In this document: positions 3,533-59,109 of the stretch, piece after piece
Numbering within the stretch: position 1 is the stretch's first letter
How the letters are laid out: every line of letters starts with the position of its first letter
Assembly: GCA_027064425.1 (NCBI GenBank)
Contig: JAMOPO010000057.1
Location: forward strand, 124,001 to 188,000
Length of the DNA: 64,000 bases
Reading direction: 5' to 3'
Source: Methanobacteriota archaeon
Lineage (GTDB): Archaea > JAADCQ01 > Methanopyri > Methanopyrales > Methanopyraceae
Program-made: the position numbers and the translations under genes
The notes under the pieces: generated by a model
What the model saw: only the letters and a program-made list of their open reading frames with translations
Database searches by the model: none
What the model was told of the DNA's origin: nothing

Positions 3533-4003
3533 CTGCTCCTCCTAACCGATCACATGCTCCTACGCCTGTGCCGCTGGCTCCGCCTCCTCGGCTACCCCAC
3601 CCTCTCGGCGCACGAGATCGTCGACCCTAGGGAGGTGGAGGACGAGGACGAGGTCCTGCTAGAGTTCTGTCGGGAGCGGGACGCGCTGCTGATCACTCGA
3701 GACCGGGCCCTGGCGAGTCGAGCCCGGTCGCACTCCGTGCTGGTGCGGAGCGACGACGTGCCGGGGCAGCTCGCGGAGGTGCTCTCGAGGCTGGGTGACG
3801 AGCCCTACCTGGACCCGGACGAGTCCCGGTGCCCGGAGTGCAACGAGCCCGTGGAGCGCGTCAGGGCGGAGAACCCGGGCCCCTTCGAGGTCATGTGGCG
3901 GTGCCCTGAGTGCGGCAAAATGTACTGGGTGGGCGGGCAGTGGGAGGACATGGAGCGCGTTATTAGGGAGACCGAGCGGCGACTGAGGGGGTCCCCGGAG
4001 TGA
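3533..4003 (+). CDS. Mut7-C/PIN-like RNase domain with zinc ribbon; proposed CTG start
   Basis: Predicted ribonuclease of the Mut7-C (DUF82) family: a PIN-like fold followed by a zinc ribbon with CPEC near residue 100 and CPEC about 25 residues later. The family begins with a strand and an Asp just before the ML-RLxRWLRLLGY block. Here the matching residues LLLLTDHML lie upstream of the first ATG (3554), which would remove the strand and that Asp. The only upstream options between the Cdc48 stop (3527-3529) and 3554 are non-standard; CTG at 3533, next to GGGGTGA, restores the full fold (156 aa). The gene sits 3 nt after cdc48 and overlaps the next gene through GTGA. The start is inference; the family call is firm. 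Confidence 0.82.
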   Translation: MLLLTDHMLLRLCRWLRLLGYPTLSAHEIVDPREVEDEDEVLLEFCRERDALLITRDRALASRARSHSVLVRSDDVPGQLAEVLSRLGDEPYLDPDESRCPECNEPVERVRAENPGPFEVMWRCPECGKMYWVGGQWEDMERVIRETERRLRGSPE

Positions 4004-4617
4004 CCAAGCTGTCGCTGGAGGAGGGGGAGTTCCTGGTCCGGCTGGCCCGGGACGCGATCGTCGAGTACCTGAAGTCCCGGGAGAAGATCGAACGGGAGCC
4101 GCCGTCGGACCGGCTGAAGGAGGAGCGTGGCGTCTTCGTCACGCTGAAAAAGCACCCGAGCGACGAGCTGCGCGGCTGCATCGGGTTCCCGGAGCCCGTG
4201 GAGCCGCTCGTTAAGGCGACGGTGGAGGCCGCGATCAGCGCGGCGACGAACGACCCGCGGTTCCCACCGATGCGGGATCCGGAGGAGATGAAGGAAGTGC
4301 GGGTGGAGGTCAGCGTGCTCACGCCGCCCAAGCGGTTGGAGGTGGATGATCCGAAGGAGTACCTGGAGCGCATCGAGATCGGTCGACACGGTATCATCGT
4401 ACGGCGGGGGGCGAACTCCGGGCTGCTGCTGCCTCAGGTGCCGGTGGAGGAGGGCTGGGACGAGATGGAGTTCCTCTCGCACGCCTGCCTGAAGGCCGGG
4501 CTCCCGCCGGACGCGTGGTGCTCTTCGGACTGCGAGGTCTACGTGTTCGAGGCGCAGGTGTTCGAGGAGGAGGAGCCCGAGGGGGAGGTTCGGGAGAAGG
4601 AGTTAACGGAGGAGTAA
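4000..4617 (+). CDS. AMMECR1-domain protein
   Basis: A 205-residue member of the AMMECR1 family, conserved in archaea and eukaryotes with no settled biochemical role. The diagnostic LRGCIG motif lies near residue 60, and the FVTL strand and AATNDPRFPP block are also present. The GTG start at 4000 overlaps the stop of the preceding gene as GTGA, which indicates translational coupling. The C-terminal 20 residues are almost all charged. The 3' end overlaps the convergent PIG-L gene by 15 nt. Confidence 0.88.
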   Translation: MTKLSLEEGEFLVRLARDAIVEYLKSREKIEREPPSDRLKEERGVFVTLKKHPSDELRGCIGFPEPVEPLVKATVEAAISAATNDPRFPPMRDPEEMKEVRVEVSVLTPPKRLEVDDPKEYLERIEIGRHGIIVRRGANSGLLLPQVPVEEGWDEMEFLSHACLKAGLPPDAWCSSDCEVYVFEAQVFEEEEPEGEVREKELTEE

Positions 4618-6254: not shown

Positions 6255-7349
6255 CTAGTACTCCCGGCACATGTCCAGGAACTCGTCGAACAGCCACCGC
6301 GTGTCCCAGGGACCCGGGTTAGCCTCCGGGTGGAACTGGACCGAGAACGCGGGCGCGTCCGTGTGCACGACGCCCTCCACGGTCCCGTCGTTCACGTTCA
6401 CCCACCGTACCTCCAGCGGCGTGTCCTCCAGGCTCTCGGGGTCCAGCGCGAACCCGTGGTTCTGCGCGGTGATGTACACCCGGCCGTCCCTCAGGTCCTT
6501 CACCGGCTGGTTGGCGCCCCGGTGCCCGAACTTCATCTTGAACGTACGACCGCCCTCAGCCAGTCCGAGGATCTGGTTCCCGAGGCAGATCCCCATCAGG
6601 GGGACCTCGCCGACCAGCTCGCGGACCGTCTCGATCGTCTCCCTCACACGCTTCGGGTCTCCGGGCCCGTTGGACACGAGCACCCCGTCCGGGTCTAGGT
6701 CCAGGATCTCCTCCGCCGGCGTGTCGTACGGGACCACGAGCACGCCGGCGCCACGCTTGGCCAGCTCCCGCAGGATGCCCCGCTTCACCCCGCAGTCGAT
6801 GACCACCACCTCGGGCTCTCCCTCGGAGAACCGGTAGGGCTCCTCCGTGGAGACCTTGGGCACCAGGTCGAGCTCGGAGATGTGAGGCACCTGGCGCACC
6901 TTCTCCATCAGCTCCTCCCGGCTGGGCGGATCGTCCGGTTCGTAGGGAACGAGCACGCCGCGCATGGCGCCCTCCGTCCGGATCCGGCGCGTGAGCATCC
7001 GGGTGTCGACGCCGGCCAGCCCGGGGACGCCGTTCTCCTCCAGGAACTCGTCGAGCGTTTTCTCAGCCTTCGGGTGGATGGGCCCGTCGTGGAGGTACCG
7101 GACCACGAACCCCTCGACCTGCACCCGGTCGGACTCGCCTACCTCGGAGATGACCCCGTAGTTTCCCTGCATGGGCGCGGTCATGATGAGTATTTGACCC
7201 TTATATGAGGGGTCCGTGAGCGCCTCCTGGAACCCCGTGTGCGAAGTGTTGAAGACCACCTCTCCCTCGACCTCCCGGGGGCAGCCGAAGAGCTCCCCGT
7301 GCACCACCGTCCCGTCCTCGAGCGCCAGGGCCGCCCGCAAGTCAGCCAC
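6255..7349 (-). CDS. carA: Carbamoyl-phosphate synthase small (glutaminase) subunit
   Basis: A 364-residue glutamine amidotransferase subunit that supplies ammonia for carbamoyl phosphate in pyrimidine and arginine synthesis. The N-terminal CarA domain shows FNTSHTGFQEALTDPSY and the C-terminal class I glutaminase shows the nucleophile in GICLGNQ and the His-Glu pair in QFHPE. GTG 7349 gives a normal family length. The large subunit is not in this window. It is divergent from the HisA-like gene, with only 50 nt between the two starts. Confidence 0.95.
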   Translation of the reverse strand: MADLRAALALEDGTVVHGELFGCPREVEGEVVFNTSHTGFQEALTDPSYKGQILIMTAPMQGNYGVISEVGESDRVQVEGFVVRYLHDGPIHPKAEKTLDEFLEENGVPGLAGVDTRMLTRRIRTEGAMRGVLVPYEPDDPPSREELMEKVRQVPHISELDLVPKVSTEEPYRFSEGEPEVVVIDCGVKRGILRELAKRGAGVLVVPYDTPAEEILDLDPDGVLVSNGPGDPKRVRETIETVRELVGEVPLMGICLGNQILGLAEGGRTFKMKFGHRGANQPVKDLRDGRVYITAQNHGFALDPESLEDTPLEVRWVNVNDGTVEGVVHTDAPAFSVQFHPEANPGPWDTRWLFDEFLDMCREY

Positions 7350-7399
7350 CCCAGTCCCGCCGGATCGCCGGAGTAAAAGTCTCCTCGGGGTGCCCCACG

Positions 7400-8767
7400 T
7401 TGCTGGAGGGACTGAGGGCGACGCTGAGGAGGGTCTCGGACGCGCGGTTGGAGTCCCTGCTGGGCAAGGACGAGCTGGACTTCCAGGTGTTCGTGAAGGG
7501 CGCCATCGGCGCACTGCGCGACGGGATCCGGCGGCTTGCGGGCCTGAACCCGGAGGCGGCGGCCGGATACGCCGCCGCGAGGCGCGGGTACCGGACGGAG
7601 ACGCTGAGGGAGCTCACCCGGGCCGTGGAAGGCAGGGCGGAGCACCTGGCGGTTCGCGCCCTGCAGCTGTACAAGGCGGCCTGCTGGGACGTTCTCGAGG
7701 ATTCGGAGGAGATCATGGGGGTGGGCGTCGCCGTCGACCTCCGAGAGGGTCGGGTGGTCGTCCGCAAGAGCCCCAAGGAGCGGGAGTACGAGCCGATCTC
7801 GAAGGCTTACGACCTGCCGGACGACCCGCACGAGCTGGTGACGGAGCTCGTCGACCGGTACGACCTTGATTTTATCTACGTGGCGGACCTGGACGCGATT
7901 CTGGACGGGGAGCCCGGTTCGGACCTGGAGTTCCTGGAGTCCGTCGAGGTACCCGCGTTCGTCGACACGGGGCGCTGCGACGTGGAGCTACCCTCCAACG
8001 CCCGGCGCATCCTGCCTACGGAGTGCTACGACGATGCCGAGGACTACCTCGAGGATCTGGAAACGCTTGAGGACGCCGTCGCGGGCCTGGACCTCGACGG
8101 GTCCAAGGTGATGGGCCCGTGGGAGCGGGTGGGGGAGTTCCTGGACGACGTCGTGGAGCTCGTTTGCAGCCGGCGGCCGGGAGCCGTGGTGGTGGACGTC
8201 GGGGCCGTCGGATCGGGCGAGGGGCCGCCGTTCGAGGCCGGCGCGTCCGTGGGCATGTACTGCGACGCGATCATAGGTGGAGGCGTCGGGTGCCTGAAGC
8301 ACCTGGAGCTGGCGCTCGGGACCCCGGGCGTGGTGGGAGTTATCGTCGGCACGCTCCTGTTCGAGGGGGTGAATCCCATGAAGCTGGAGGAGGCCAAGAA
8401 GCGTGGGAGGGAGCTTCGGGTGCACCACATGGGGCTGGAGGAGGAGTACCTGGAGCTCATCAAGGAGGGCAAGAAGACGGTGGAGGGGCGGGTGAAGGAC
8501 GACAAGCGCGTGAGGATCAAGCCCGGTGATAAGATCCTGTTCAACCGGCGGCTCCTGGTCGAGGTCGTGGACGTGCGGGAGTACGACTCGTTCGAGGAGA
8601 TGCTCCGGGAGGAGGGTCTCGAGAACGTCCTCCCGAACGTGGACTCCATCGAGGAGGGCGTGGAGGTGTACCGGAAGTTCTACTCCAGCGGTAAGGAGAA
8701 GATGTTCGGGGTCCTCGCCATCGAGATCCGGCCGCTGATGGACCTGTTCGAGGACATCTGCGACTGA
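7400..8767 (+). CDS. Three-part protein: helical N-domain, HisA-like barrel, ASCH domain
   Basis: A 455-residue open frame with three regions. Residues 1-105 are helical and unrecognised. Residues about 106-330 resemble the HisA-related barrel (COG1411 type): VAVDLREGRVV, then YVADLDAI, then GVGCLKHLELAL and the terminal barrel strand. Residues about 335-455 form an ASCH/PUA-like RNA-binding domain beginning HHMGLEEEYLELIKEGKK. The TTG start at 7400 follows GGGGTG. Two in-frame internal ATGs also have good ribosome sites: 7715 (GGAGGA upstream), exactly at the barrel start, and 8378 (GGGGGTGA upstream), near the ASCH start. The function of the fusion is unknown. Confidence 0.72.
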   Translation: MLEGLRATLRRVSDARLESLLGKDELDFQVFVKGAIGALRDGIRRLAGLNPEAAAGYAAARRGYRTETLRELTRAVEGRAEHLAVRALQLYKAACWDVLEDSEEIMGVGVAVDLREGRVVVRKSPKEREYEPISKAYDLPDDPHELVTELVDRYDLDFIYVADLDAILDGEPGSDLEFLESVEVPAFVDTGRCDVELPSNARRILPTECYDDAEDYLEDLETLEDAVAGLDLDGSKVMGPWERVGEFLDDVVELVCSRRPGAVVVDVGAVGSGEGPPFEAGASVGMYCDAIIGGGVGCLKHLELALGTPGVVGVIVGTLLFEGVNPMKLEEAKKRGRELRVHHMGLEEEYLELIKEGKKTVEGRVKDDKRVRIKPGDKILFNRRLLVEVVDVREYDSFEEMLREEGLENVLPNVDSIEEGVEVYRKFYSSGKEKMFGVLAIEIRPLMDLFEDICD

Positions 8768-9568
8768 TCACTCCAGGATGGGACCCTCCGGGCTCGGGAT
8801 GAACCCGATGCGCTCCAGGAACTTGTCGTCGTACACCAGCTCAATCTCGGTGCCGCCCAGGTAGGGACCCACCCGGTGCAGGACGCCGGGGGCGTCGGTA
8901 TCCTCGTCGAGCACCACCTCGTTCTCCAGGAGCCCCCACCGCTCGATCCGGATGACGCGGCGACCGAAACCGGCCTTGTTCAGCGCTCGCTGGAGTCGTT
9001 TCCGAGTGATTCCGGAGACGATCATCCGGTCGTACGGGTCGGCGGCCATCTCGAGCAGGTACTCTACTTGCTCGTCCGTCAGCTTGGCCTCGATCTCCCC
9101 CTTCTCCTCGTCCACCTCCACGATCTCTACCTCGAGTGGTAAGTTCTCGACGAAGCCGAAACTGCGGCCGATATCCCGAACCGAGGCCTTCTCACCGTCG
9201 AGCAGCTGCTCCCTCAGTCGGTACAGCGGGATCAGCGCGTCGACCACCTTAGGACCCACCACCCCGATGTCCACGTAGACGCCGTACCCGACCTTGTAGA
9301 GGTCGATGATCTTTCCATAAATCACGTCGCCGGGCACCAGGTCGAACAGCGACCTGACGGTGTCGAACTCCTCGATCAACCGCTCCGCCGCCTCCTCCGC
9401 GTCGGGTCCGCGGAGCTTCAGGGTCGCCCACGAGCGGAAGTTCTTCTTCACCTCCTCGATCCTCACCTCGAGGTCGCTCAGTAGCTGCCTGACCTGAGTC
9501 AGCAGCGACTCCTCGGCCCCGCCGTCCCGGTACAGCTTTTCCAGTATCGTAACGTGGACCACCGGCAC
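8768..9568 (-). CDS. S1-like domain archaeal protein (resembles DUF2110)
   Basis: A 266-residue archaeal protein. Around residues 75-125 it has an S1/OB-like strand pattern, GDVIYGKIIDLYKVGYGVYVDIG, given here only in part as the family cue, suggesting RNA binding. The rest matches what I recall of DUF2110. GTG 9568 follows GGTGAG. It is the last gene of a minus-strand run (PurL, deacetylase-like, TFE, HD protein, this gene), and its stop directly abuts the stop of the convergent HisA-like gene. A general link to RNA or transcription is inference. Confidence 0.6.
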   Translation of the reverse strand: MPVVHVTILEKLYRDGGAEESLLTQVRQLLSDLEVRIEEVKKNFRSWATLKLRGPDAEEAAERLIEEFDTVRSLFDLVPGDVIYGKIIDLYKVGYGVYVDIGVVGPKVVDALIPLYRLREQLLDGEKASVRDIGRSFGFVENLPLEVEIVEVDEEKGEIEAKLTDEQVEYLLEMAADPYDRMIVSGITRKRLQRALNKAGFGRRVIRIERWGLLENEVVLDEDTDAPGVLHRVGPYLGGTEIELVYDDKFLERIGFIPSPEGPILE

Positions 9569-9574
9569 GGCCGC

Positions 9575-10099
9575 TCACCACCGGTCAAGCTCTGGCGGTA
9601 TAGCGTTCAGCTCGGACAGCTCGCGGTGCAGCTCGACGAGCCTGCGAACGGGCGGGGCGTCCTCTCCCAGCTTCTCGGAGAACTTGCGGACGACGGCTTT
9701 GATCGGAACGTGCTCGGTCCCGAACGTCAGGTTGTCCGCGTGCGCTACGATCTTCTCCTCTAAGGTCTCCGGCACGTAATCCTTCGGCGGCAGCCCCAGC
9801 TCCTCGGCCTCCTCTTTCGGTATCCCGGCCCCGATGTGACGCTCCACGATGCGGGCGACCCGCTCCGGGTACCCCAGCTCCCGGACGATCTGGGCCCCGA
9901 CGACCGCGTGATCGATCCCGTGCGTCTTCGACCGGCCGATGTCGTGCAGCAGCGCTCCCACGCGAACTAGCTCGACGTCGACGTCCTCCCGACAGCGCTC
10001 GGCCATCTCGACGGCGAGCTCGCAGACGGCCTTGCAGTGGTTGATCACGCGCCTGGGACAGCCGACGCGCTTCAGGTCTTCAATCGGATCCCTGTCCAC
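9575..10099 (-). CDS. HD-domain phosphohydrolase (HDIG type)
   Basis: A 174-residue metal-dependent phosphohydrolase of the HD superfamily. Visible ligands are the first His in NHCKAV, the LLHDIGRS motif, DHAVVGA, and a later AHADNLTFG. Size and motif order match the small archaeal TIGR00295-like group, whose substrate is unknown. GTG 10099 overlaps the end of tfe by 20 nt, so expression is tied to the transcription factor gene. Confidence 0.85.
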   Translation of the reverse strand: MDRDPIEDLKRVGCPRRVINHCKAVCELAVEMAERCREDVDVELVRVGALLHDIGRSKTHGIDHAVVGAQIVRELGYPERVARIVERHIGAGIPKEEAEELGLPPKDYVPETLEEKIVAHADNLTFGTEHVPIKAVVRKFSEKLGEDAPPVRRLVELHRELSELNAIPPELDRW

Positions 10100-51268: not shown

Positions 51269-51661
51269 ATGGAGTTCGAGGAGTACCTGGAGGAGTGGTT
51301 CAAGGGTGAGACCACCGAGGTGGGCATCTACATGGCGATGGCCATCGTCGCACGAGAGCAGGGGTACCCGGACGTCGCCGAGCTGCTGGAGCAGGTGGCC
51401 ATGGACGAGGCGCGGCACGCGGCCGCCGCAGCGCTGATCGCCGGCAAGGTCGAGAACAGCCTGGACGGGCTCATCGAGAAGCTCGAGGAGATGATTGAAG
51501 GGGAGAAGCAGGCCTACGAGACGCGGATGGACGAGGCCGACCACCACTCGGACGAGCTGGACGACGAGGTGATCACCCTGCTGAAGGCCACCGCCTACGA
51601 CGAGAAGCACCACAGGAAGATGCTTAAGGCGGCGCTGAAGCGGCTCAAGGAGGAGGCCTAA
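51269..51661 (+). CDS. Rubrerythrin-like ferritin-superfamily diiron protein
   Basis: A 130-residue four-helix protein. Diiron ligands are suggested by the first-helix ETTEVGIYMAMA, EQVAMDEARHAAAA and C-terminal YDEKHHRKML. There is no rubredoxin domain. The family commonly reduces hydrogen peroxide or stores iron, so an oxidative-stress role is likely. ATG 51269. It is preceded by a candidate redox-regulator box shared with the cooS operon. Confidence 0.82.
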   Translation: MEFEEYLEEWFKGETTEVGIYMAMAIVAREQGYPDVAELLEQVAMDEARHAAAAALIAGKVENSLDGLIEKLEEMIEGEKQAYETRMDEADHHSDELDDEVITLLKATAYDEKHHRKMLKAALKRLKEEA

Positions 51662-51806: not shown

Positions 51807-52571
51807 GTGAGCCGGTTGCGCTTCGCCGTCCTCTACTCTCACCCGTTCGGCGAGAGAATGTTGGCCAACCTGCTGAACGAGCCGGGCCACTGTCGGGCCT
51901 GCGGGCCCGCGTGCGATGGATGCAAGTACGGTGCGTACTCGCTCGCCGACTCCCTGGTTACCGCGGAGGAGCTACCCAAGCCGGAGGAGCTACCCCCGAT
52001 GATCGAGGATCCAGGGGACTACCTCCCAAGACTACCGCCCGTCGACGTGCTGGTGGCGGTCGGACTGCACCCCGACCTCCTGATCGCGCTACCCGAGTCG
52101 TACGACGTCCGCTCCCTGATCGTTCCGGTCGAGGAGCCCGACTGGATGGACCCGTGGACGGAGAGGAAGCTTCGCGAAGCGTGCGAGGAGAGCAACGTGG
52201 AGCTCACGGTGGCGAGACCGGGGTGCGACCTGGAGCCACCCGGCCCCGTGACCGAGAGGTTCTGCAGGGCGGGCCTGATCGGCAGGCCTAAGCTGTCCCT
52301 GAGGGTGGAGGACGGCGTCGTAGTTGAGGCCCGGGTGGTGAGGTCGGCGCCGTGCGGCTGCACGTGGTTCGTGGCCAAGCGGCTGGTGGGCGTGGACGCG
52401 GAGCCGGGGGAGGTGAAGGCCGCCGTGTCCGAGGCGCACCACTCCTACCCGTGCACGGCCTCGATGAAGGTCGACGAGCGCGTCGGGGACACCCTGCTCC
52501 ACGCGGCGGGCTGGCTGCACGTGAGGGCCGCCCTTCGGGCGCTGGAGGAGGCGGTAGGGGGCGGCGAGTGA
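51807..52571 (+). CDS. DUF166-family archaeal protein
   Basis: A 254-residue protein of the DUF166 family, sometimes labelled thymidylate-synthase-related without proof. An N-terminal Cys cluster CRACGPACDGCKYG and later RSAPCGCTWFVAKRL are typical; cluster or metal binding is likely. The HHSYPCTASMKVD end segment is also conserved-looking. GTG 51807; TTG 51816 would start at the first strand. It stands between the rubrerythrin-like and CODH genes. Confidence 0.82.
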   Translation: MSRLRFAVLYSHPFGERMLANLLNEPGHCRACGPACDGCKYGAYSLADSLVTAEELPKPEELPPMIEDPGDYLPRLPPVDVLVAVGLHPDLLIALPESYDVRSLIVPVEEPDWMDPWTERKLREACEESNVELTVARPGCDLEPPGPVTERFCRAGLIGRPKLSLRVEDGVVVEARVVRSAPCGCTWFVAKRLVGVDAEPGEVKAAVSEAHHSYPCTASMKVDERVGDTLLHAAGWLHVRAALRALEEAVGGGE

Positions 52572-52579
52572 AGACGTCC

Positions 52580-53005
52580 TCAGTCGCCGAGCACTCGCTC
52601 CAGCACCTCCCGGAACAGCCTCCACCTCCTCCCCCGGAGCCCGTACTCCCGGCGCACGTCGGCCTCGATGTCCTTGGCCTCGTAGCCGGCCGGGCGGTAC
52701 GTGGAGACCAAATCGCCGTCGCGGCGCCCCGGCTTCAGCCTGATCTCGCCGCGACGTAGGAGGTCGTGGATGGCCTCCTTCACGTCCACGGAGAAGTACG
52801 GCGCCCTGAGCAGCATGCAGTACCCGTACTCGGTCCCCGTCAGCGGCCGGCCCGTCTCGCGCTCGAACTCCTCGTCGATCGAGTAGATCACGCGGAACAG
52901 GGATCGCTGGTCGATACCGGGCCGGAGCGCCACGAGGTACTTCACCAGCGGTCTCAGGTCCGCGTCCGTCGGCTCGACCGTGTGACATCTGCACCGGGCG
53001 TGCAA
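52580..53005 (-). CDS. SocA/Panacea-like small protein
   Basis: A 141-residue protein of uncertain function. The pattern SLFRVIYSIDEEFERETGRPLTG...LRAPYFSVDVKEAIHDLLRRGEI resembles the SocA-like (Panacea) fold found in antitoxins and phage proteins. TTG 53005 follows GGGGTG at eight bases; ATG 53077 would add a Cys-rich 24-residue leader covering the promoter. It is divergent from the cooS operon, and the TTCG-N8-CGAA box lies between its TATA and start. No toxin neighbour is seen. Confidence 0.55.
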   Translation of the reverse strand: MHARCRCHTVEPTDADLRPLVKYLVALRPGIDQRSLFRVIYSIDEEFERETGRPLTGTEYGYCMLLRAPYFSVDVKEAIHDLLRRGEIRLKPGRRDGDLVSTYRPAGYEAKDIEADVRREYGLRGRRWRLFREVLERVLGD

Positions 53006-53037
53006 GGTCGCGCCACCCCATCGGCCGAGATCTCCCG

Positions 53038-53053
53038 TTCGATGAAATTCGAA
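53038..53053 (+). promoter_or_regulatory. TTCG-N8-CGAA box before the cooS operon
   Basis: Reads TTCG, ATGAAATT, CGAA, followed four bases later by the TATA element. It would be in position to compete with TFB at the cooS promoter. The last gene of the operon encodes an MsvR-like ArsR-V4R regulator, a candidate ligand of this box. Confidence 0.6.
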
Positions 53054-53057
53054 AACG

Positions 53058-53063
53058 TTATAA
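53058..53063. promoter_or_regulatory. Symmetric TATA element TTATAA of the cooS promoter
   Basis: The self-complementary TTATAA lies 61 bases before the cooS ATG and 53 bases before the divergent SocA-like start. It is the only A/T-only hexamer in the interval and can serve both directions. Confidence 0.55.
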
Positions 53064-53124
53064 TGGTACGCGGGCATGGTCGAGACTGGTCGAACGTTCG
53101 GTTGGATGCGAACGGGGGATGGGC

Positions 53125-55026
53125 ATGTCGGGAGAGTGCCCGTACGCGGACGAGGCCGTCCGTGAGCTGGTCGAGCACGCCAAGAAGCTCAACGAGGAGA
53201 TGCCGGAGATCGAGACCCCGCACATCCGGTGGCCCGTTCAGTTCCCGAAGTGCCCGTACGGTAAGCAGGGCGTGTGGTGCAACATCTGCGCGAACGGGCC
53301 CTGCAGGATCACCGAGAAGACGCCGCGCGGCGTGTGCGGAGCCACGGCGGACGTGATCGTGGCCCGTAACTTCCTCCGGCACGTGGCCGCGGGGGCCGCG
53401 TGCTACGTTCACTGCCTGGAGAACGCCGCCCGGGCCCTGAAGTCCGTGGCGGATGAGGAGTCACCGTACGAGATCGCGGACGAGCGCGCCCTGCGGCACG
53501 CAGCCGAGGTCTACGGGCTGGACGCCTCGGGCAAGCCGGAGGACGTGGCGGAGGAGATCGCGGACTTCATCCTAGAGGACATTTACCGGCCGCGGCACGA
53601 GGAGTCGGAGGTGTTCAAGGCGGTCGTGCCGGACTGGCGAGTCGAGATGTACGAGGAGCTCGGTCTCGTCCCGGGCGGCGCGAAGTCCGAGATTCACGAC
53701 GCGCTGGTCAAGACGAGCACGAACCTGAACTCCGACCCGGAGGACATGCTCCTGCACGTGCTCCGGCTGGGCCTGATCACCGGACCCGTCTCCCTGTTCG
53801 GCGTGGAGACAATCAACGACATCCTGTTCGGGAGTCCGAGGATCACGGAGACGGAGGGCGGCCCGGGGATCCTGGACCCGGACTACGTGAACATTATGGT
53901 CACCGGGCACCAGATGCCGCTGCTCAAGCACCTCATGGACGCGGCCGAGCGGCTGGAGGACGAGGCCAAGAGGGCCGGGGCCAAGGGCATCCGGATCATC
54001 GGGGCGACGTGCGTCGGCGACGACTTCGAGGCCCGCGCGGAGCACCTGCCGGACACGTACGCGGGGTTCGCGGGCAACAACTTCGCGACCGAGGCGCTGG
54101 CCGCGACGGGTCTCGTGGACGCGATCGTCAGCGAGTTCAACTGCACGTTCCCGGGCCTGAAGTTCTACGGTGAGAACGTCGAGCTGATCGCCGTGGACGA
54201 CGTGGCCAAGGTGTGGGGAGCGGAGCTGATTCAGTGGGACCCGGAGCGCGCTGAGGAGGTGGCCGAGGAGGCCGTCAGAAGGGCCATCGAGGCGTTCAAG
54301 GAGCGCCGCTCGAAGCATGAGGATCGGATCATGCGGCCCGAGCACAGGCACGAGAACGTGGTGGGCTTCGGCTACTTCTCGATCGAGGACGCGGTCGGCT
54401 GGGAGAAGGTGCTCGAGCTGATCGAGGAGGGCACCATCCGAGGCGTCTGCGCGATCGTGGGCTGCACGAACCTGGCCAGCGGCGGTCACAACGTGCCGGC
54501 CGCCACCCTGGCGAAGGAGATGATCAAGCGGGACATCCTCGTCCTCGGAGCCGGGTGCGTGAACGGAGCGCTGGCCAACGCCGGCCTGTTCAACCCCGAG
54601 GCGGCCGAGCTCGCCGGCGAGAACCTCCGGAAGGTCTGCGAGGAGCTCGGCATCCCACCGGTGCTCCACTACGGGCCGTGCCTGGCGATCGGTAAGATCG
54701 AGCACCTGCTCTTCGAGATCGCCGAGATCCTGCGGGAGAAGACCGGCGAGGAGGTCGATATCCCGGACATCCCGGCCGTCGCGAGCGCGCCGCAGTGGCT
54801 CGAGGAGCAGGCGCTGGCGGACGCGTCCTCGGCCCTAGCGCTGGGCATCACGCTGCACGTGAGCCCGGTGCCGCCCGTGACCGGCAGCAAGGTGGTCACC
54901 AAGACGCTGCTCGAGGACCTGCCGGAGCTGACCGGCGGCGAGCTGATCATCGAGACGGACATGGAGAAGGCCGCCGAGATCCTGGCCGAGAAGATCGAAG
55001 AGAAGCGGAAGCGCTTGGGTATCTGA
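53125..55026 (+). CDS. cooS: Divergent Ni-Fe carbon monoxide dehydrogenase catalytic subunit (CooS)
   Basis: A 633-residue homologue of monofunctional CODH. The C-cluster ligands are all present: H262, C296, C340, C447, C478, C519. The B-cluster Cys are C52, C55, C60 and C71. However, of the two D-cluster Cys expected, only C43 remains; the second position is W51. The acid-base His in the AAH motif is Cys (AAC at 91-93), and the conserved Lys near the C-terminus is Gln (Q562, in PQWLEEQAL). These alignments use recalled CODH-II numbering. The fold and metal site look intact, but electron exit and proton handling should differ. ATG 53125 follows GGGGGAT; ATG 53119 is possible. First gene of a six-gene run. 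Confidence 0.9.
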   Translation: MSGECPYADEAVRELVEHAKKLNEEMPEIETPHIRWPVQFPKCPYGKQGVWCNICANGPCRITEKTPRGVCGATADVIVARNFLRHVAAGAACYVHCLENAARALKSVADEESPYEIADERALRHAAEVYGLDASGKPEDVAEEIADFILEDIYRPRHEESEVFKAVVPDWRVEMYEELGLVPGGAKSEIHDALVKTSTNLNSDPEDMLLHVLRLGLITGPVSLFGVETINDILFGSPRITETEGGPGILDPDYVNIMVTGHQMPLLKHLMDAAERLEDEAKRAGAKGIRIIGATCVGDDFEARAEHLPDTYAGFAGNNFATEALAATGLVDAIVSEFNCTFPGLKFYGENVELIAVDDVAKVWGAELIQWDPERAEEVAEEAVRRAIEAFKERRSKHEDRIMRPEHRHENVVGFGYFSIEDAVGWEKVLELIEEGTIRGVCAIVGCTNLASGGHNVPAATLAKEMIKRDILVLGAGCVNGALANAGLFNPEAAELAGENLRKVCEELGIPPVLHYGPCLAIGKIEHLLFEIAEILREKTGEEVDIPDIPAVASAPQWLEEQALADASSALALGITLHVSPVPPVTGSKVVTKTLLEDLPELTGGELIIETDMEKAAEILAEKIEEKRKRLGI

Positions 55027-55059
55027 TTCTCACCAATCTTTTCCGGGCAGGTGACTCTC

Positions 55060-56160
55060 ATGAGAGTGGAAACGCTCCGGGTCGCGACGGGTGAGCCCGG
55101 AGAGCTGAGGGTGGTCGCGGAGATCACGGAGGGGAAGGTCGTGAACGCCGAGGTGTGCTCCACGACCACGCCGCTCTCCTGGGAGACGCTGGTCCTCGAG
55201 AAGCCCGTCGAGTTCGCCGTGGTCGCCGCCGAGCGGGTGTGCCGCGGCTGCGACGCCAGCGCGGGGCTGGCCGTGGCGGAGGCGGCCGAGGACGCCCTGG
55301 GCGTGGACGTGCCGGACGACGCGAGGAGGGCCCGAGAGCTCCTGAACATGGCCAACGTGGTCAAGTCGCACGCCAGGACGCTGGCCGTGGCCGACCTGGG
55401 AGTGGAGGAGCCGGCCTACGAGCTCGTCCGCGCCGCCAAGGAGATCGTCAGGATGGTGGGCGGGAAGCCCCAGCACCCACCCGCCGTAACCGTGGGCGGC
55501 CTGGCGATCGAGCGGATCCCCGTGGAGCGGGTTGAGAGCGTGGCCAAGGACGCGGTGGAGACCGCCGAGGAGGTGCTGGATGACGTGGAGTCGGCCGTAG
55601 ACGACCTGCGAGAAGACCTCGAGGTGGAGCCGCGCGAGCGGCCGACCGAGCTCAGCGTCTCGGACACGTACAGGGGCGACGTGGACCGGGGCGCGATCGA
55701 GGTGCTGACGCCGGAGGAGTTCTACCGGATGAGGACCACCCGGAGGATCGCCACCAACCTCGTCGCCCAGTATGAGGGCAAGCCCGCCCTGGTCGGACCG
55801 GCCGCGAGGCGGGGCGGGGCGGAGCATCCGGTGGAGCACCACGTCGCCAGGGCCGAGGAGATCGTGAGCATGCTGGACGGGATCGCGGACGCCGCCTCAG
55901 GGCTGGACGGGTCCGGCGAGTACCGGACGGACGACGTGGAGGCGGGATCCGGCGAAGGGGCGGCCGCGGTGGAGGCCCCGGAGGGCGTCCTCGTCGTCCG
56001 GCTGCGGCTCAGGAACGGGCGCGTGGACGAGGCCGAGATGATCACTCCTTCCAACTTCAAGGCGGCCCTCGCGGGCGACCTCCTGCCCGGACTGACGGTC
56101 GAGGAGGTCGAGACGGTCCTGCGCTCGCTCGGCCTCTCCGGCAGGTGCCTCACGCACTGA
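55060..56160 (+). CDS. Degenerate [NiFe]-hydrogenase large subunit (FrhA/MvhA-like)
   Basis: A 366-residue homologue of the hydrogenase large subunit, shorter than the usual 400-470. The L1 motif RxCGxC appears as RVCRGC (C61, C64), but the His that normally follows is missing. The segment ARRARELLNMANVVKSHA and PALVGPAARR are clear family matches. The C-terminal DPCxxCxxH motif reads GLSGRCLTH: the first Cys is Ser360, the second is C363, and the chain ends at that His without the usual cleaved extension. A nickel site is therefore doubtful; it may serve as a scaffold. ATG 55060 follows AGGTGA, 33 bases after cooS. Confidence 0.78.
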   Translation: MRVETLRVATGEPGELRVVAEITEGKVVNAEVCSTTTPLSWETLVLEKPVEFAVVAAERVCRGCDASAGLAVAEAAEDALGVDVPDDARRARELLNMANVVKSHARTLAVADLGVEEPAYELVRAAKEIVRMVGGKPQHPPAVTVGGLAIERIPVERVESVAKDAVETAEEVLDDVESAVDDLREDLEVEPRERPTELSVSDTYRGDVDRGAIEVLTPEEFYRMRTTRRIATNLVAQYEGKPALVGPAARRGGAEHPVEHHVARAEEIVSMLDGIADAASGLDGSGEYRTDDVEAGSGEGAAAVEAPEGVLVVRLRLRNGRVDEAEMITPSNFKAALAGDLLPGLTVEEVETVLRSLGLSGRCLTH

Positions 56161-56172
56161 GGGGGGCTCGAG

Positions 56173-56889
56173 ATGAGGGTAGCCCTGCTCTCCCTCATGT
56201 CCTGCGGATCCTGCGCGGAGAACCTCGAGATCGTGTGCCAGAGTGAGGGCCACGAGCTGGTATGGTCGAGTCTGAGGGACGACGGTGAAGTGCCGGACGT
56301 GGACGTCCTGTTCGTGGACGGGGCCGTGGACTTCGCCGACGCTGACGCGCGGGAGCGGCTCGAGCGGGCGGTCTCGTCGGCGGACGTGGTCGTGTCGCTG
56401 GGATCCTGCGCCGCCACCGGTGGCTTTGAGCGGCACGCGATCGGCATGCGAGAGCCCGCCAGGTACCACTTCACGGTGTTCCCGGCCGCCAAGTTCGCCG
56501 ACACGGACTACGCCATCATCGGCTGCCCTCCCACGGAGGACGCCATCGCCTCCTTCCTGGAGGCGCTGGAGGAGGGCGACGACGACAGGCTCGAGCCGTA
56601 CCGGGTCCTGTCGGGGGACTTCCACGGGCTGGACCCGAACCTGCCGTCCCCCGTCCGTGGCCCGGAGGCGACGGTGGAGGACGTGCTGCTGACCTCCAAC
56701 AAGGATCTCTGCCTGGGCTGCGACCTGGACGTCGTCGAGCGAGAGCTATTCTGCACGGGATGCGGAGCGTGCGCCGCCTCGTGCCCCGCCTGGGCCATAG
56801 AGATCGACGAGAAGCCCGAGATCCGCGAGGACAGGTGCATCAGGTGCGGAACGTGCTTCGCGACCTGCCCGAGGTCGTTCCGAGCTTGA
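56173..56889 (+). CDS. FrhG-like hydrogenase small subunit with two ferredoxin clusters
   Basis: A 238-residue electron-transfer subunit. The N-terminal small-subunit domain keeps the proximal cluster ligands C11 and C14 (SCGSC), C79 (LGSCAATGG) and C118 (IGCPPT). The C-terminal part has a CLGC pair and two [4Fe-4S] motifs, CTGCGACAASCP and CIRCGTCFATCP. This matches FrhG of F420-reducing hydrogenase. It could wire the CooS protein to the FrhB-like flavin subunit. ATG 56173 follows GGGGGG, 12 bases after the large-subunit gene. Confidence 0.88.
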   Translation: MRVALLSLMSCGSCAENLEIVCQSEGHELVWSSLRDDGEVPDVDVLFVDGAVDFADADARERLERAVSSADVVVSLGSCAATGGFERHAIGMREPARYHFTVFPAAKFADTDYAIIGCPPTEDAIASFLEALEEGDDDRLEPYRVLSGDFHGLDPNLPSPVRGPEATVEDVLLTSNKDLCLGCDLDVVERELFCTGCGACAASCPAWAIEIDEKPEIREDRCIRCGTCFATCPRSFRA

Positions 56890-56908
56890 GCCACCGGTGG
56901 TGCGCGCG

Positions 56909-57811
56909 ATGCGCGGGTTGCTGAGAAAGATCCTCGGGAAGAAAGACCGGCGGGATGGTAAGATGAAGCTCGACCCCGAGCTCGTGGGTGAGTACCGCGG
57001 CGCGTACCTGGCTCGAGCCACCGAGGAGCGCTTCCGAGAGGCCGGCCAGGACGGCGGCACCGTCACCGCGCTCCTGGCGCACGCGCTCGAGGAGGGTTAC
57101 ATCGAGGCCGCGGTCGTGTCGACGACGGGCTCCGACCCGTGGAGGCCGAGGCCGACCGTGGCCACGAGCGTGGAGGAGCTGCTCGAGGCGGCCGGGTCGA
57201 AGTACTCCATCTCGCCGAACCTGAGCGCGCTGGAGACGGCCGTCGGGTCCCACGACTCGGTGGCCGTGGTCGGCACACCGTGCCAGGTCAGCGCCGTCAG
57301 GAAGCTGGAGTCGCACGCGTACGGCGTGGCCGACGTCGCGGAGCGCGTGAAGCTGCTCATCGGCCTCTTCTGCTCCGAGAACCTGACCTACAAGGGTCTG
57401 ACCGAGTTACTAGAGAAGGAGATCGAGGCCGACCTCTCCAGCGTGGAGCGCATGGACATCACGGCGGGTAAGTTCACCGTCGTCACCTCCGACGGCGAGG
57501 AGCGATCGGTTTCCGTCTCAGAGCTGCGCAGGTACGCCAACGAGGCGTGCGGCTTCTGCACTGATTTAACGGCAGAGGACGCGGACGTGAGCGTTGGGTC
57601 CACGGGCGCTCCAGACGGTTGGAACGTCGTTCTGGTGCGGACCGGCCGGGGCGAGAGGATCCTCCAGTCCGCTGTGGACGCCGAGGTGCTGGAGGTAAGG
57701 GACGTGGACGAGGGGGACCCGGCGACCCTCGAGCGGCTGGCGAGCGACAAGAGGGAGCGCGCCGAGAGCGCCAGGTGCGCGGTGTGGCGACCCTACCCGA
57801 CCTCCCCCTAG
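56909..57811 (+). CDS. FrhB-like F420-binding flavoprotein subunit
   Basis: A 300-residue member of the coenzyme F420 hydrogenase/dehydrogenase beta family, which carries FAD and a [4Fe-4S] cluster and exchanges hydride with F420. Motifs: GQDGGTVTALLAHALEEG, VVGTPCQVSAVRKL, GLFCSENLTYKGL and CGFCTDLTAEDADVSVGS. A basic N-terminal extension of about 25 residues precedes the usual start. ATG 56909 lies six bases after GGTGGTG; GTG 56897 and 56900 are alternatives. Its presence argues that the complex uses F420. Confidence 0.88.
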   Translation: MRGLLRKILGKKDRRDGKMKLDPELVGEYRGAYLARATEERFREAGQDGGTVTALLAHALEEGYIEAAVVSTTGSDPWRPRPTVATSVEELLEAAGSKYSISPNLSALETAVGSHDSVAVVGTPCQVSAVRKLESHAYGVADVAERVKLLIGLFCSENLTYKGLTELLEKEIEADLSSVERMDITAGKFTVVTSDGEERSVSVSELRRYANEACGFCTDLTAEDADVSVGSTGAPDGWNVVLVRTGRGERILQSAVDAEVLEVRDVDEGDPATLERLASDKRERAESARCAVWRPYPTSP

Positions 57812-57842: not shown

Positions 57843-58319
57843 GTGGAAATCGGTCCGAGGGAGTTCCTCCGAGCGTTCCTGTACTCCTACGTCGTAACGT
57901 CCGCGCAGCTGCTGGGTAGCAAGGCGCCGGCCCTGCGGCGGGCCGTGTGCAGGAACGCCGCCCGGGCCCTACTCCGGGAGCACCCGGAGCTGGAGGACCT
58001 CGAGCCCGTTGAGATGGTGAAGGCGGTGGCCGAGAGCCTGCTGGGGGCCAGCGTGAGCGTCGATGAGGACGCGTCCGGAGGAGTGGCTGTCAGGATCGAG
58101 GGATGCAGGATCTGCCCGAGGGACCTCATCGAGGAGTTCGTCCGTGATCATCCCGAGTTGAAGGACCCGATCTTCGGGTACAACGTCTGCGCGTTCACGA
58201 CCCTCATTGAGGAGGTCTTCCGAGCCCTGGGGGAGGAAGTTGAACTGAAGCACGAGCCCGTGGAGCGCGGCCGCTGTCGCGTGATCGTGAAGGCGAGCGG
58301 CAATAGGGCCGACGTTTGA
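57843..58319 (+). CDS. Stand-alone V4R-like protein
   Basis: A 158-residue protein. The C-terminal half (VRIEGCRICPRDLIEE, YNVCAFTTLIEEVFRALG, GRCRVIVKA) follows the Cys spacing of the V4R (4-vinyl reductase) sensor domain and parallels the C-terminal domain of the next gene. The N-terminal half is helical. It may bind a hydrophobic or redox ligand, or a metal. GTG 57843 follows GGGGGCGG, 31 bases after the FrhB-like gene. Confidence 0.65.
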   Translation: MEIGPREFLRAFLYSYVVTSAQLLGSKAPALRRAVCRNAARALLREHPELEDLEPVEMVKAVAESLLGASVSVDEDASGGVAVRIEGCRICPRDLIEEFVRDHPELKDPIFGYNVCAFTTLIEEVFRALGEEVELKHEPVERGRCRVIVKASGNRADV

Positions 58320-58368
58320 ACCTGAGGATGGCCCGCGGATGGTCGTCCCCTGCGCAGGGGAGGGCGAG

Positions 58369-59109
58369 ATGAGGCTGGCCATCGACGTTCCCAAGGATGT
58401 GGCCAGGGCGTTGGACAACGAGACCCGGCGCGAGATCCTTGAGCTGCTCAGAAAGCGCGGTCCCATGACCCTGTCCGACATAGCCCGGGAGCTGGGGCTG
58501 TCGAAATCGACGGTGCACCACCACCTGCGGGAGCTCCGGCGGGCCGGCCTGGTGGACGTGGTCAAGGAGGACCGGGGCGCGCCGCTGCCCAGGCGGTACT
58601 ACGGGCTGGTGCGCAGGCTGGTGAAGCTGTCGAGACCGAGGCTCGAGGACGCGGTGGAGTACGTCGCGCGAGCGCTGGACAGGGAGGACGACCCGTCCAC
58701 CTCCCTCCCGCTGGCCATAGCCGCCGCCTACCGTGCGGTGCTGGAGTCGCTGGGCGTTGACGCGAGGGAGGTCCTGTACGAGCTGGGCGAGGAGGTGGGT
58801 AAACGGCTGGCCAGGCGCTGTGAGGAGGGCTTGAAGGGGTTGGAACGGGTCCTATCCTCCGTGGCCGACTCGGTGCGGGTCCGCCGGGATGGGGAGCGCG
58901 TCACCGTCGAGGTGGAGGGGTGCCGGGAGTGCTCGGACCTTCCTTACGGCCCCGCCTGTCCGCTGGAGGCCGGCATCGTGGCTGGGTTCCTGACGGAGCT
59001 GACCGGCCGGCGCTACCGGGCTGAAGAGGTCGAGTGCTGTGGAGAGGGAGCGGAGAGGTGCGTGTTCGTGGCGGAGCCCGCTAGCGACGAAGAACGCCCC
59101 AAGCCCTAG
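58369..59109 (+). CDS. MsvR-like transcription regulator (ArsR helix-turn-helix plus V4R)
   Basis: A 246-residue regulator. The N-terminal winged helix (residues about 10-85; TLSDIARELGLSKSTVHHHL) is ArsR-type. The C-terminal V4R domain (about 170-235) has GCRECSDLPYGPACP, then ECCGEGAERCVF. This domain pair is that of MsvR, a redox-sensitive regulator of methanogens whose Cys change state under oxidation. ATG 58369 follows GGGGAGGG. Likely autoregulates the cooS operon through the TTCG-N8-CGAA box, an inference. Confidence 0.82.
   Translation: MRLAIDVPKDVARALDNETRREILELLRKRGPMTLSDIARELGLSKSTVHHHLRELRRAGLVDVVKEDRGAPLPRRYYGLVRRLVKLSRPRLEDAVEYVARALDREDDPSTSLPLAIAAAYRAVLESLGVDAREVLYELGEEVGKRLARRCEEGLKGLERVLSSVADSVRVRRDGERVTVEVEGCRECSDLPYGPACPLEAGIVAGFLTELTGRRYRAEEVECCGEGAERCVFVAEPASDEERPKP

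Follow-up and report, generated by a model that had tools for sequence, protein, structure and literature searches.

A clade C-type cooS gene of Methanopyrus lies beside genes derived from an F420-hydrogenase and may encode part of a CO:F420 oxidoreductase

We analyzed a 64,000-nucleotide stretch of a Methanopyraceae contig (JAMOPO010000057.1, positions 124,001 to 188,000 of the forward strand; here called the window) that carries a cooS gene. On the same strand, cooS is followed by frhA' (after a gap of 24 bases), frhG (12 bases), and frhB (7 bases) and then by the genes for a 158-amino-acid protein (31 bases) and for an HTH-V4R regulator (19 bases) (Table 1). No ACS or cooC gene was recognized in this apparent operon. 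The first five genes, from cooS to that for the 158-amino-acid protein, recur at all Methanopyrus loci (5/5). The 158-amino-acid protein is kept in all five genomes, between frhB and the regulator; one of them (L006/L069) has its regulator homologue upstream.

Table 1. Genes and diagnostic codons at the cooS locus (positions within the window)
Feature	Position	Strand	Basis
cooS, assigned to clade C (C-3-like) Ni-CODH, 633 aa	53125..55026	+	TIGR01702, tree node 100/100, AlphaFold model
Cys43 codon, sole remaining D-cluster Cys (= CODH-II C39)	53251..53253	+	alignment
Trp51 codon at D-cluster Cys2 (= CODH-II C47)	53275..53277	+	alignment
Cys93 codon (= CODH-II position 92, G92)	53401..53403	+	alignment
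Tyr94 codon, true replacement of CODH-II His93	53404..53406	+	alignment
Cys97 codon	53413..53415	+	alignment
Gln562 codon at CODH-II Lys563	54808..54810	+	alignment
frhA', 369 aa, degenerate alpha-like subunit of F420-hydrogenase type	55051..56160	+	profile match, alignment, model
frhG-like iron-sulfur subunit	56173..56889	+	profile match, alignment
frhB-like F420-reducing subunit	56897..57811	+	profile match, alignment
158-aa Cys-containing protein of unknown family in apparent operon	57843..58319	+	no Pfam/NCBIfam match
ArsR-type HTH + V4R regulator	58339..59109	+	MsvR model 103.7 bits, under cut-off 220

The cooS gene of Methanopyrus is a real, intact gene for a CooS-type Ni-CODH. Its open reading frame is uninterrupted, and the product scored 723 bits against TIGR01702 (cut-off, 478) and 500 bits against the Prismane family (cut-off, 27). 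The AlphaFold model (pLDDT 90.5) matched solved CODHs over their full length with TM scores of 0.92 to 0.93 (0.93 for 6t7j). Each of the five Methanopyrus genomes, which belong to one genus and the same phylum, has one such cooS, and the CooS proteins are 88 to 93% identical. The genome from which the window comes also encodes further Prismane-family proteins elsewhere and a separate CdhA-like CODH.

Active-site residues were read from a 79-row alignment (37 clade C rows and 42 others) anchored on CODH-II, whose sequence was taken from the PDB and whose C39, C47, H93, C295, and K563 fall at their published numbers. The full C-cluster set of one His and five Cys is present in CooS (H262, C296, C340, C447, C478, and C519), exactly as the initial annotation had numbered it, and these six ligands are invariant over the 37 clade C rows. 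All four B-cluster Cys are kept as well. The annotation had further reported two substitutions, W51 for the second D-cluster Cys and Q562 for the conserved Lys, and both readings agree with the alignment. It had also named C93 as the residue replacing the proton-relay His. That His is indeed gone, but its place is taken by Tyr94, and C93 lies one residue out of register, at G92 of CODH-II. The claim that both acid-base residues are absent therefore stands in substance (Tyr and Gln), although the replacement of the His had been placed one residue off. The motifs GAAGH (CODH-II), GAAAH (Thermococcus), and GAACY (Methanopyrus CooS) are collinear without an indel. A sequencing error at W51, C93, Y94, or Q562 was ruled out, as all five Methanopyrus genomes carry the same residues.

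Several of these states set clade C apart. Position 92 is Cys in 37/37 clade C rows and in 0/42 others, position 93 is Tyr in all 37, and position 563 is Gln in each of the 36 clade C rows readable there, a consistency that rules out chance. Cys93 and Tyr94 both lie within one predicted helix (residues 75 to 109). At the D-cluster Cys2 position, 21 clade C rows keep Cys; Methanopyrus has Trp there, and 11/11 rows from genomes that we take to be Methanocaldococcales (the name Archaeoglobales, used below, is likewise our assumption for the compared genomes) have Tyr. The extra Cys97 occurs in all 16 Methanopyrus and Methanocaldococcales rows and in none of the remaining 63. At the C295 position, 21 of the 42 non-clade-C rows have the CooS-V-type Glu, and Methanopyrus CooS has Cys (C296). 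A clade D-1 or CooS-V identity would entail Glu for C295 and a retained Lys, in contrast to C296 and Q562 here, and a clade D or hybrid-cluster-like identity was rejected because the C295 ligand is retained. Structures of the H93A and K563A variants of CODH-II are available in the PDB.

In the larger of two trees, CooS fell within a 36-row clade (SH-aLRT 100) apart from the reference enzymes CODH-II, CODH-IV, CODH-V, Thermococcus CODH, and Desulfovibrio vulgaris CODH; in the smaller tree, with fewer rows, it fell within a 26-row clade supported at 100/100. The label clade C comes from residue signatures and the positions of the reference CODHs, the trees having been built without labeled clade C sequences. 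A weakly supported archaeal subclade (90/71) joined the CooS proteins of Methanopyrus, Methanocaldococcales, and one Archaeoglobales-like genome (L021), the last being long-branched and having two D-cluster Cys. A single origin of the one-Cys D-cluster state was not rejected by the AU test (p 0.22). Three Methanocaldococcales members (G125, G144, and G320) gave only a weak CdhA-kind match, which indicates that cooS is not universal in this group. To our knowledge, no activity is known for any C-3 enzyme. Clade C was defined by a complete C-cluster with His-to-Tyr and Lys-to-Gln replacements, and the defining trait of its group C-3 was a D-cluster region with just one Cys (Inoue et al. 2019, PMC6344411). 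Methanopyrus CooS shares all of these features (Y94, Q562, and C43 kept with W51 at Cys2), as well as its occurrence in methanogens. It differs from the published group in that only Methanocaldococcus and Methanotorris were named there and in having Trp, rather than the Tyr of Methanocaldococcales, at D-Cys2. The initial annotation had proposed checking whether the substitutions are common to one clade; they are, and they define clade C in our alignment, in our trees, and in that study (PMC6344411). By sequence, CooS is assigned to the archaeal part of clade C, and its odd residues are the published mark of the clade.

The arrangement cooS-frhA'-frhG-frhB recurs in every Methanocaldococcales locus with enough flanking sequence. 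The frhA'-frhG-frhB trio was not found at 19 other clade C loci, mostly bacterial, where a lone weak FrhG match appeared (L140, 7.5e-7). Judged from neighbor sequences, the bacterial loci mostly read Rrf2-cooS-cooF-FNOR, the arrangement described previously (PMC6344411, PMC13056359). Among the clade C loci examined, the trio thus occurs only with CooS proteins that lack D-cluster Cys2, an association that rests on one or two evolutionary events. Other genes were seen near clade C cooS. A rubrerythrin-family gene lies at 51269-51661 near Methanopyrus cooS, and rubrerythrin-like genes lie near bacterial ones (L140, L147, L149, L150, and L152). In an Archaeoglobales-like genome (L055), sequence reading placed two cytochrome bd oxidase-like membrane proteins directly after cooS (7175-9771), and an MsvR-like regulator with ArsR-HTH and V4R domains is encoded near it (3599-4219). 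MsvR is a redox regulator of methanogens.

The alpha-like subunit is the most altered member of the trio. Over its whole length, FrhA' aligned with structurally solved FrhA (E 2e-39), and its model resembles FrhA folds (TM 0.68 to 0.71) at a pLDDT of only 70. Its equivalog score was 124.7 bits against a cut-off of 392.5. The Methanopyrus proteins keep the N-terminal CxxC (C64 and C67), and in all five the C-terminal DPCxxC has become GLSGRC, with Ser363 at the first Cys. In Methanocaldococcales, about 40 N-terminal residues are missing and the N-terminal motif reads CxxN. Only one Cys of each ligand pair is common to all FrhA' proteins, and the complete four-Cys NiFe ligand set of an F420-reducing hydrogenase is absent. 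These motifs show that a Ni ligand is gone from the subunit and that the missing ligand differs between the two lineages; since the Cys ligand sets are incomplete in both, FrhA' should lack a NiFe center. The Methanopyrus protein stops where mature FrhA ends and has no maturation tail. Selenocysteine at the C terminus was considered because the open reading frames of likely genuine FrhA proteins stop at TGA after YDI; it was rejected, as the Methanocaldococcales genes end at TAA without a continuation and Methanopyrus has Ser. The likely genuine FrhA genes themselves (L084, L085, and L081) read YDI-TGA-ASCA(A/T)H, which is consistent with selenocysteine at a Ni ligand.

The other two subunits retain their cofactor motifs. 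The FrhG-like subunit keeps the Cys of the proximal cluster and, in its C-terminal part, two 4Fe-4S motifs. It also contains an insert, VEDVLLTSNKDLCLGCD, that is shared with cooS-linked FrhG of Methanocaldococcales and absent from genuine FrhG. The cooS-linked FrhG proteins of Methanopyrus and Methanocaldococcales form one clade (100/99) and have this insert in common, so that the gamma subunit and cooS were probably inherited together. In the FrhB-like subunit, QDGG, P128-C129, C159, and CxxC (C218 and C221) are invariant with genuine FrhB; it scored 316 bits against NF006807 (cut-off, 269) and fell below the cut-off of the narrower TIGR03289 (259 versus 331.5). Genuine FrhG and FrhB, and a likely genuine FrhA, are encoded elsewhere in the genome.

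The main observation, namely the substitutions and the proximity of cooS to F420-hydrogenase genes, is already known. A cooS gene beside F420-hydrogenase genes was reported in M. kandleri and M. vulcanius (Matson et al. 2011, PMC3082573), and archaeal clade C was recently described as having F420-reducing hydrogenase neighbors and a single-Cys (type IV) D-cluster (PMC13240472, 2026). The genes and their arrangement are the same as those found here. The difference is that both papers call the neighbors an F420-reducing hydrogenase, whereas the alpha-like subunit has no complete NiFe ligand set. Our search of open-access main texts brought up no account of an alpha-like subunit degenerate in this way beside gamma and beta subunits with intact cofactor ligands, of the clade and insert common to cooS-linked FrhG of both lineages, of the Cys93 and Cys97 signatures, or of the restriction of the trio to clade C CooS lacking D-Cys2, and a literature search by the locus tags MJ0725-0728 and MK0382 returned nothing.

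Taken together, the gene context suggests that the operon most likely encodes a CODH, an adaptor, and an F420 reductase. We consider it somewhat probable that the CooS protein is the catalytic component of a four-subunit complex (CooS-FrhA'-FrhG-FrhB) with an auxiliary CO:F420 role. According to this model, CO would be oxidized at the C-cluster of CooS, slowly because of the Tyr/Gln acid-base pair (a cost that we assume). Electrons would leave through the B-cluster, the D-cluster being weakened or absent, and go on to the clusters of FrhG, for which FrhA' would serve as a structural docking adaptor; from there, FrhB would use its FAD to transfer them to F420. Alongside the separate CdhA-like CODH and the genuine FrhG and FrhB encoded in the genome, the complex would likely have the auxiliary role of removing CO, or of providing or balancing F420H2 during redox stress. 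The CO2/CO potential lies below that of F420. These potentials, the retained C-cluster, the CO activity of the T. kivui enzyme (PMC8683389), and the F420-linked CODH of an ethane oxidizer (PMC11493965) argue for the direction from CO to F420. The initial annotation had suggested that electrons exit by another route, in keeping with a dedicated partner subunit, and the coincidence of D-Cys2 loss with frhA'-frhG-frhB supports this at the level of gene context. A more far-reaching version is plausible but tentative: a hydrogenase large subunit devoid of NiFe, having lost a different ligand in each of two lineages, may have been kept as an adaptor that joins a CODH to the F420-reducing half and replaces the D-cluster exit, yielding a CO:F420 oxidoreductase built on CooS, with the Cys93 and Cys97 that flank the Tyr possibly tuning or ligating the active site.

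Three characterized systems offer comparisons. T. kivui CooS-CooF1, the sole purified enzyme assigned to clade C, oxidizes CO (13.9 U/mg, methyl viologen assay; PMC8683389), and the changed reaction or substrate that the annotation had read from the substitutions is therefore not borne out; this CooS may nevertheless not represent the clade (PMC13056359). It shares with our protein a dedicated Fe-S partner and the clade C assignment made in PMC13056359, but its partner is CooF in place of FrhAGB. The CODH of "Ca. Ethanoperedens" includes a subunit resembling FrhB and is linked to F420 (PMC11493965, PDB 8riu). There, as we propose here, an FAD subunit of the FrhB type with additional 4Fe-4S clusters conveys CODH electrons to F420; in contrast, its catalytic subunit is ACDS alpha (CdhA type), with epsilon, the exit is through cluster 4, and it has no hydrogenase large-subunit relic. 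The FrhABG [NiFe]-hydrogenase (PDB 4omf, 3zfs, and 9r51) has the same FrhB and FrhG cofactor ligands and the same FrhA fold, but in FrhA' the NiFe ligand set is incomplete and CooS would stand in place of the catalytic partner.

The main and serious rival to the CO:F420 model is a stress-linked reductase fed by F420H2, in which electrons would flow in reverse through FrhB and FrhG to CooS and the altered C-site would reduce hydroxylamine, NO, or a similar stress molecule. A similar proposal has been made for the hybrid-cluster protein and for clade D CooS-V, which lacks CO activity (PMC13056359), and F420H2 is a plausible donor. The MsvR-like regulator and the rubrerythrin-family gene near Methanopyrus cooS fit such a function, as do, by sequence reading, the Rrf2 regulators and rubrerythrin-like genes of bacterial clade C and the cydAB-like genes after the Archaeoglobales-like CooS. 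Against it, every C-cluster ligand is kept, including Cys295, the position at which half of the non-clade-C rows (21/42) have Glu, and T. kivui CooS, likewise placed in clade C, does oxidize CO (PMC8683389); we regard reverse flow as rather unlikely.

The remaining alternatives are weaker than the CO:F420 model in different ways. That the complex is a CO or redox sensor with a regulatory role and no bulk flux would suit an apparent operon ending with a regulator gene and the regulatory roles suggested for clades C and D (PMC13056359), yet sensing would not need the conserved electron-transfer chain down to F420, and we judge it improbable. The loss of the acid-base pair, together with one D-cluster Cys, might indicate a catalytically dead CooS retained as a scaffold. 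The fixation of six C-cluster ligands in 37 clade C rows, the intact B-cluster Cys, and the CooS identity across Methanopyrus (88 to 93%) make this very improbable. Most strongly disfavored, with hardly any weight in our view, is an ordinary F420-reducing hydrogenase that merely adjoins cooS. The loci were so described previously (PMC3082573, PMC13240472), and the frhA model matches end to end; however, a Ni ligand of FrhA' is lost in both lineages, its score (124.7 versus 392.5) is far below the cut-off, the Methanocaldococcales protein is also short by about 40 N-terminal residues, and genuine FrhG and FrhB and a likely genuine FrhA are located elsewhere.

Our reading of the alpha-like subunit corrects earlier descriptions of these loci as encoding an F420-reducing hydrogenase. 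If the CO:F420 model is true, a CO:F420 oxidoreductase would have arisen from CooS independently of the CdhA-type one in ethane oxidizers. Clade C CODHs are widespread, and the archaeal member with its F420 module would provide a defined system for asking whether a Tyr/Gln site still interconverts CO and CO2. It also bears on the reuse of a hydrogenase shell for electron wiring. The window has a DUF166 protein gene (51807-52571) upstream of cooS. Another DUF166 gene (L055, 4532-5221) directly precedes the Archaeoglobales-like cooS, and one in L053 is close to a cooS of Methanocaldococcales, a recurrence that suggests a functional link. Just before cooS, the opposite strand (52580-53077) encodes a 165-amino-acid protein without a known family, which is kept in three other Methanopyrus genomes.
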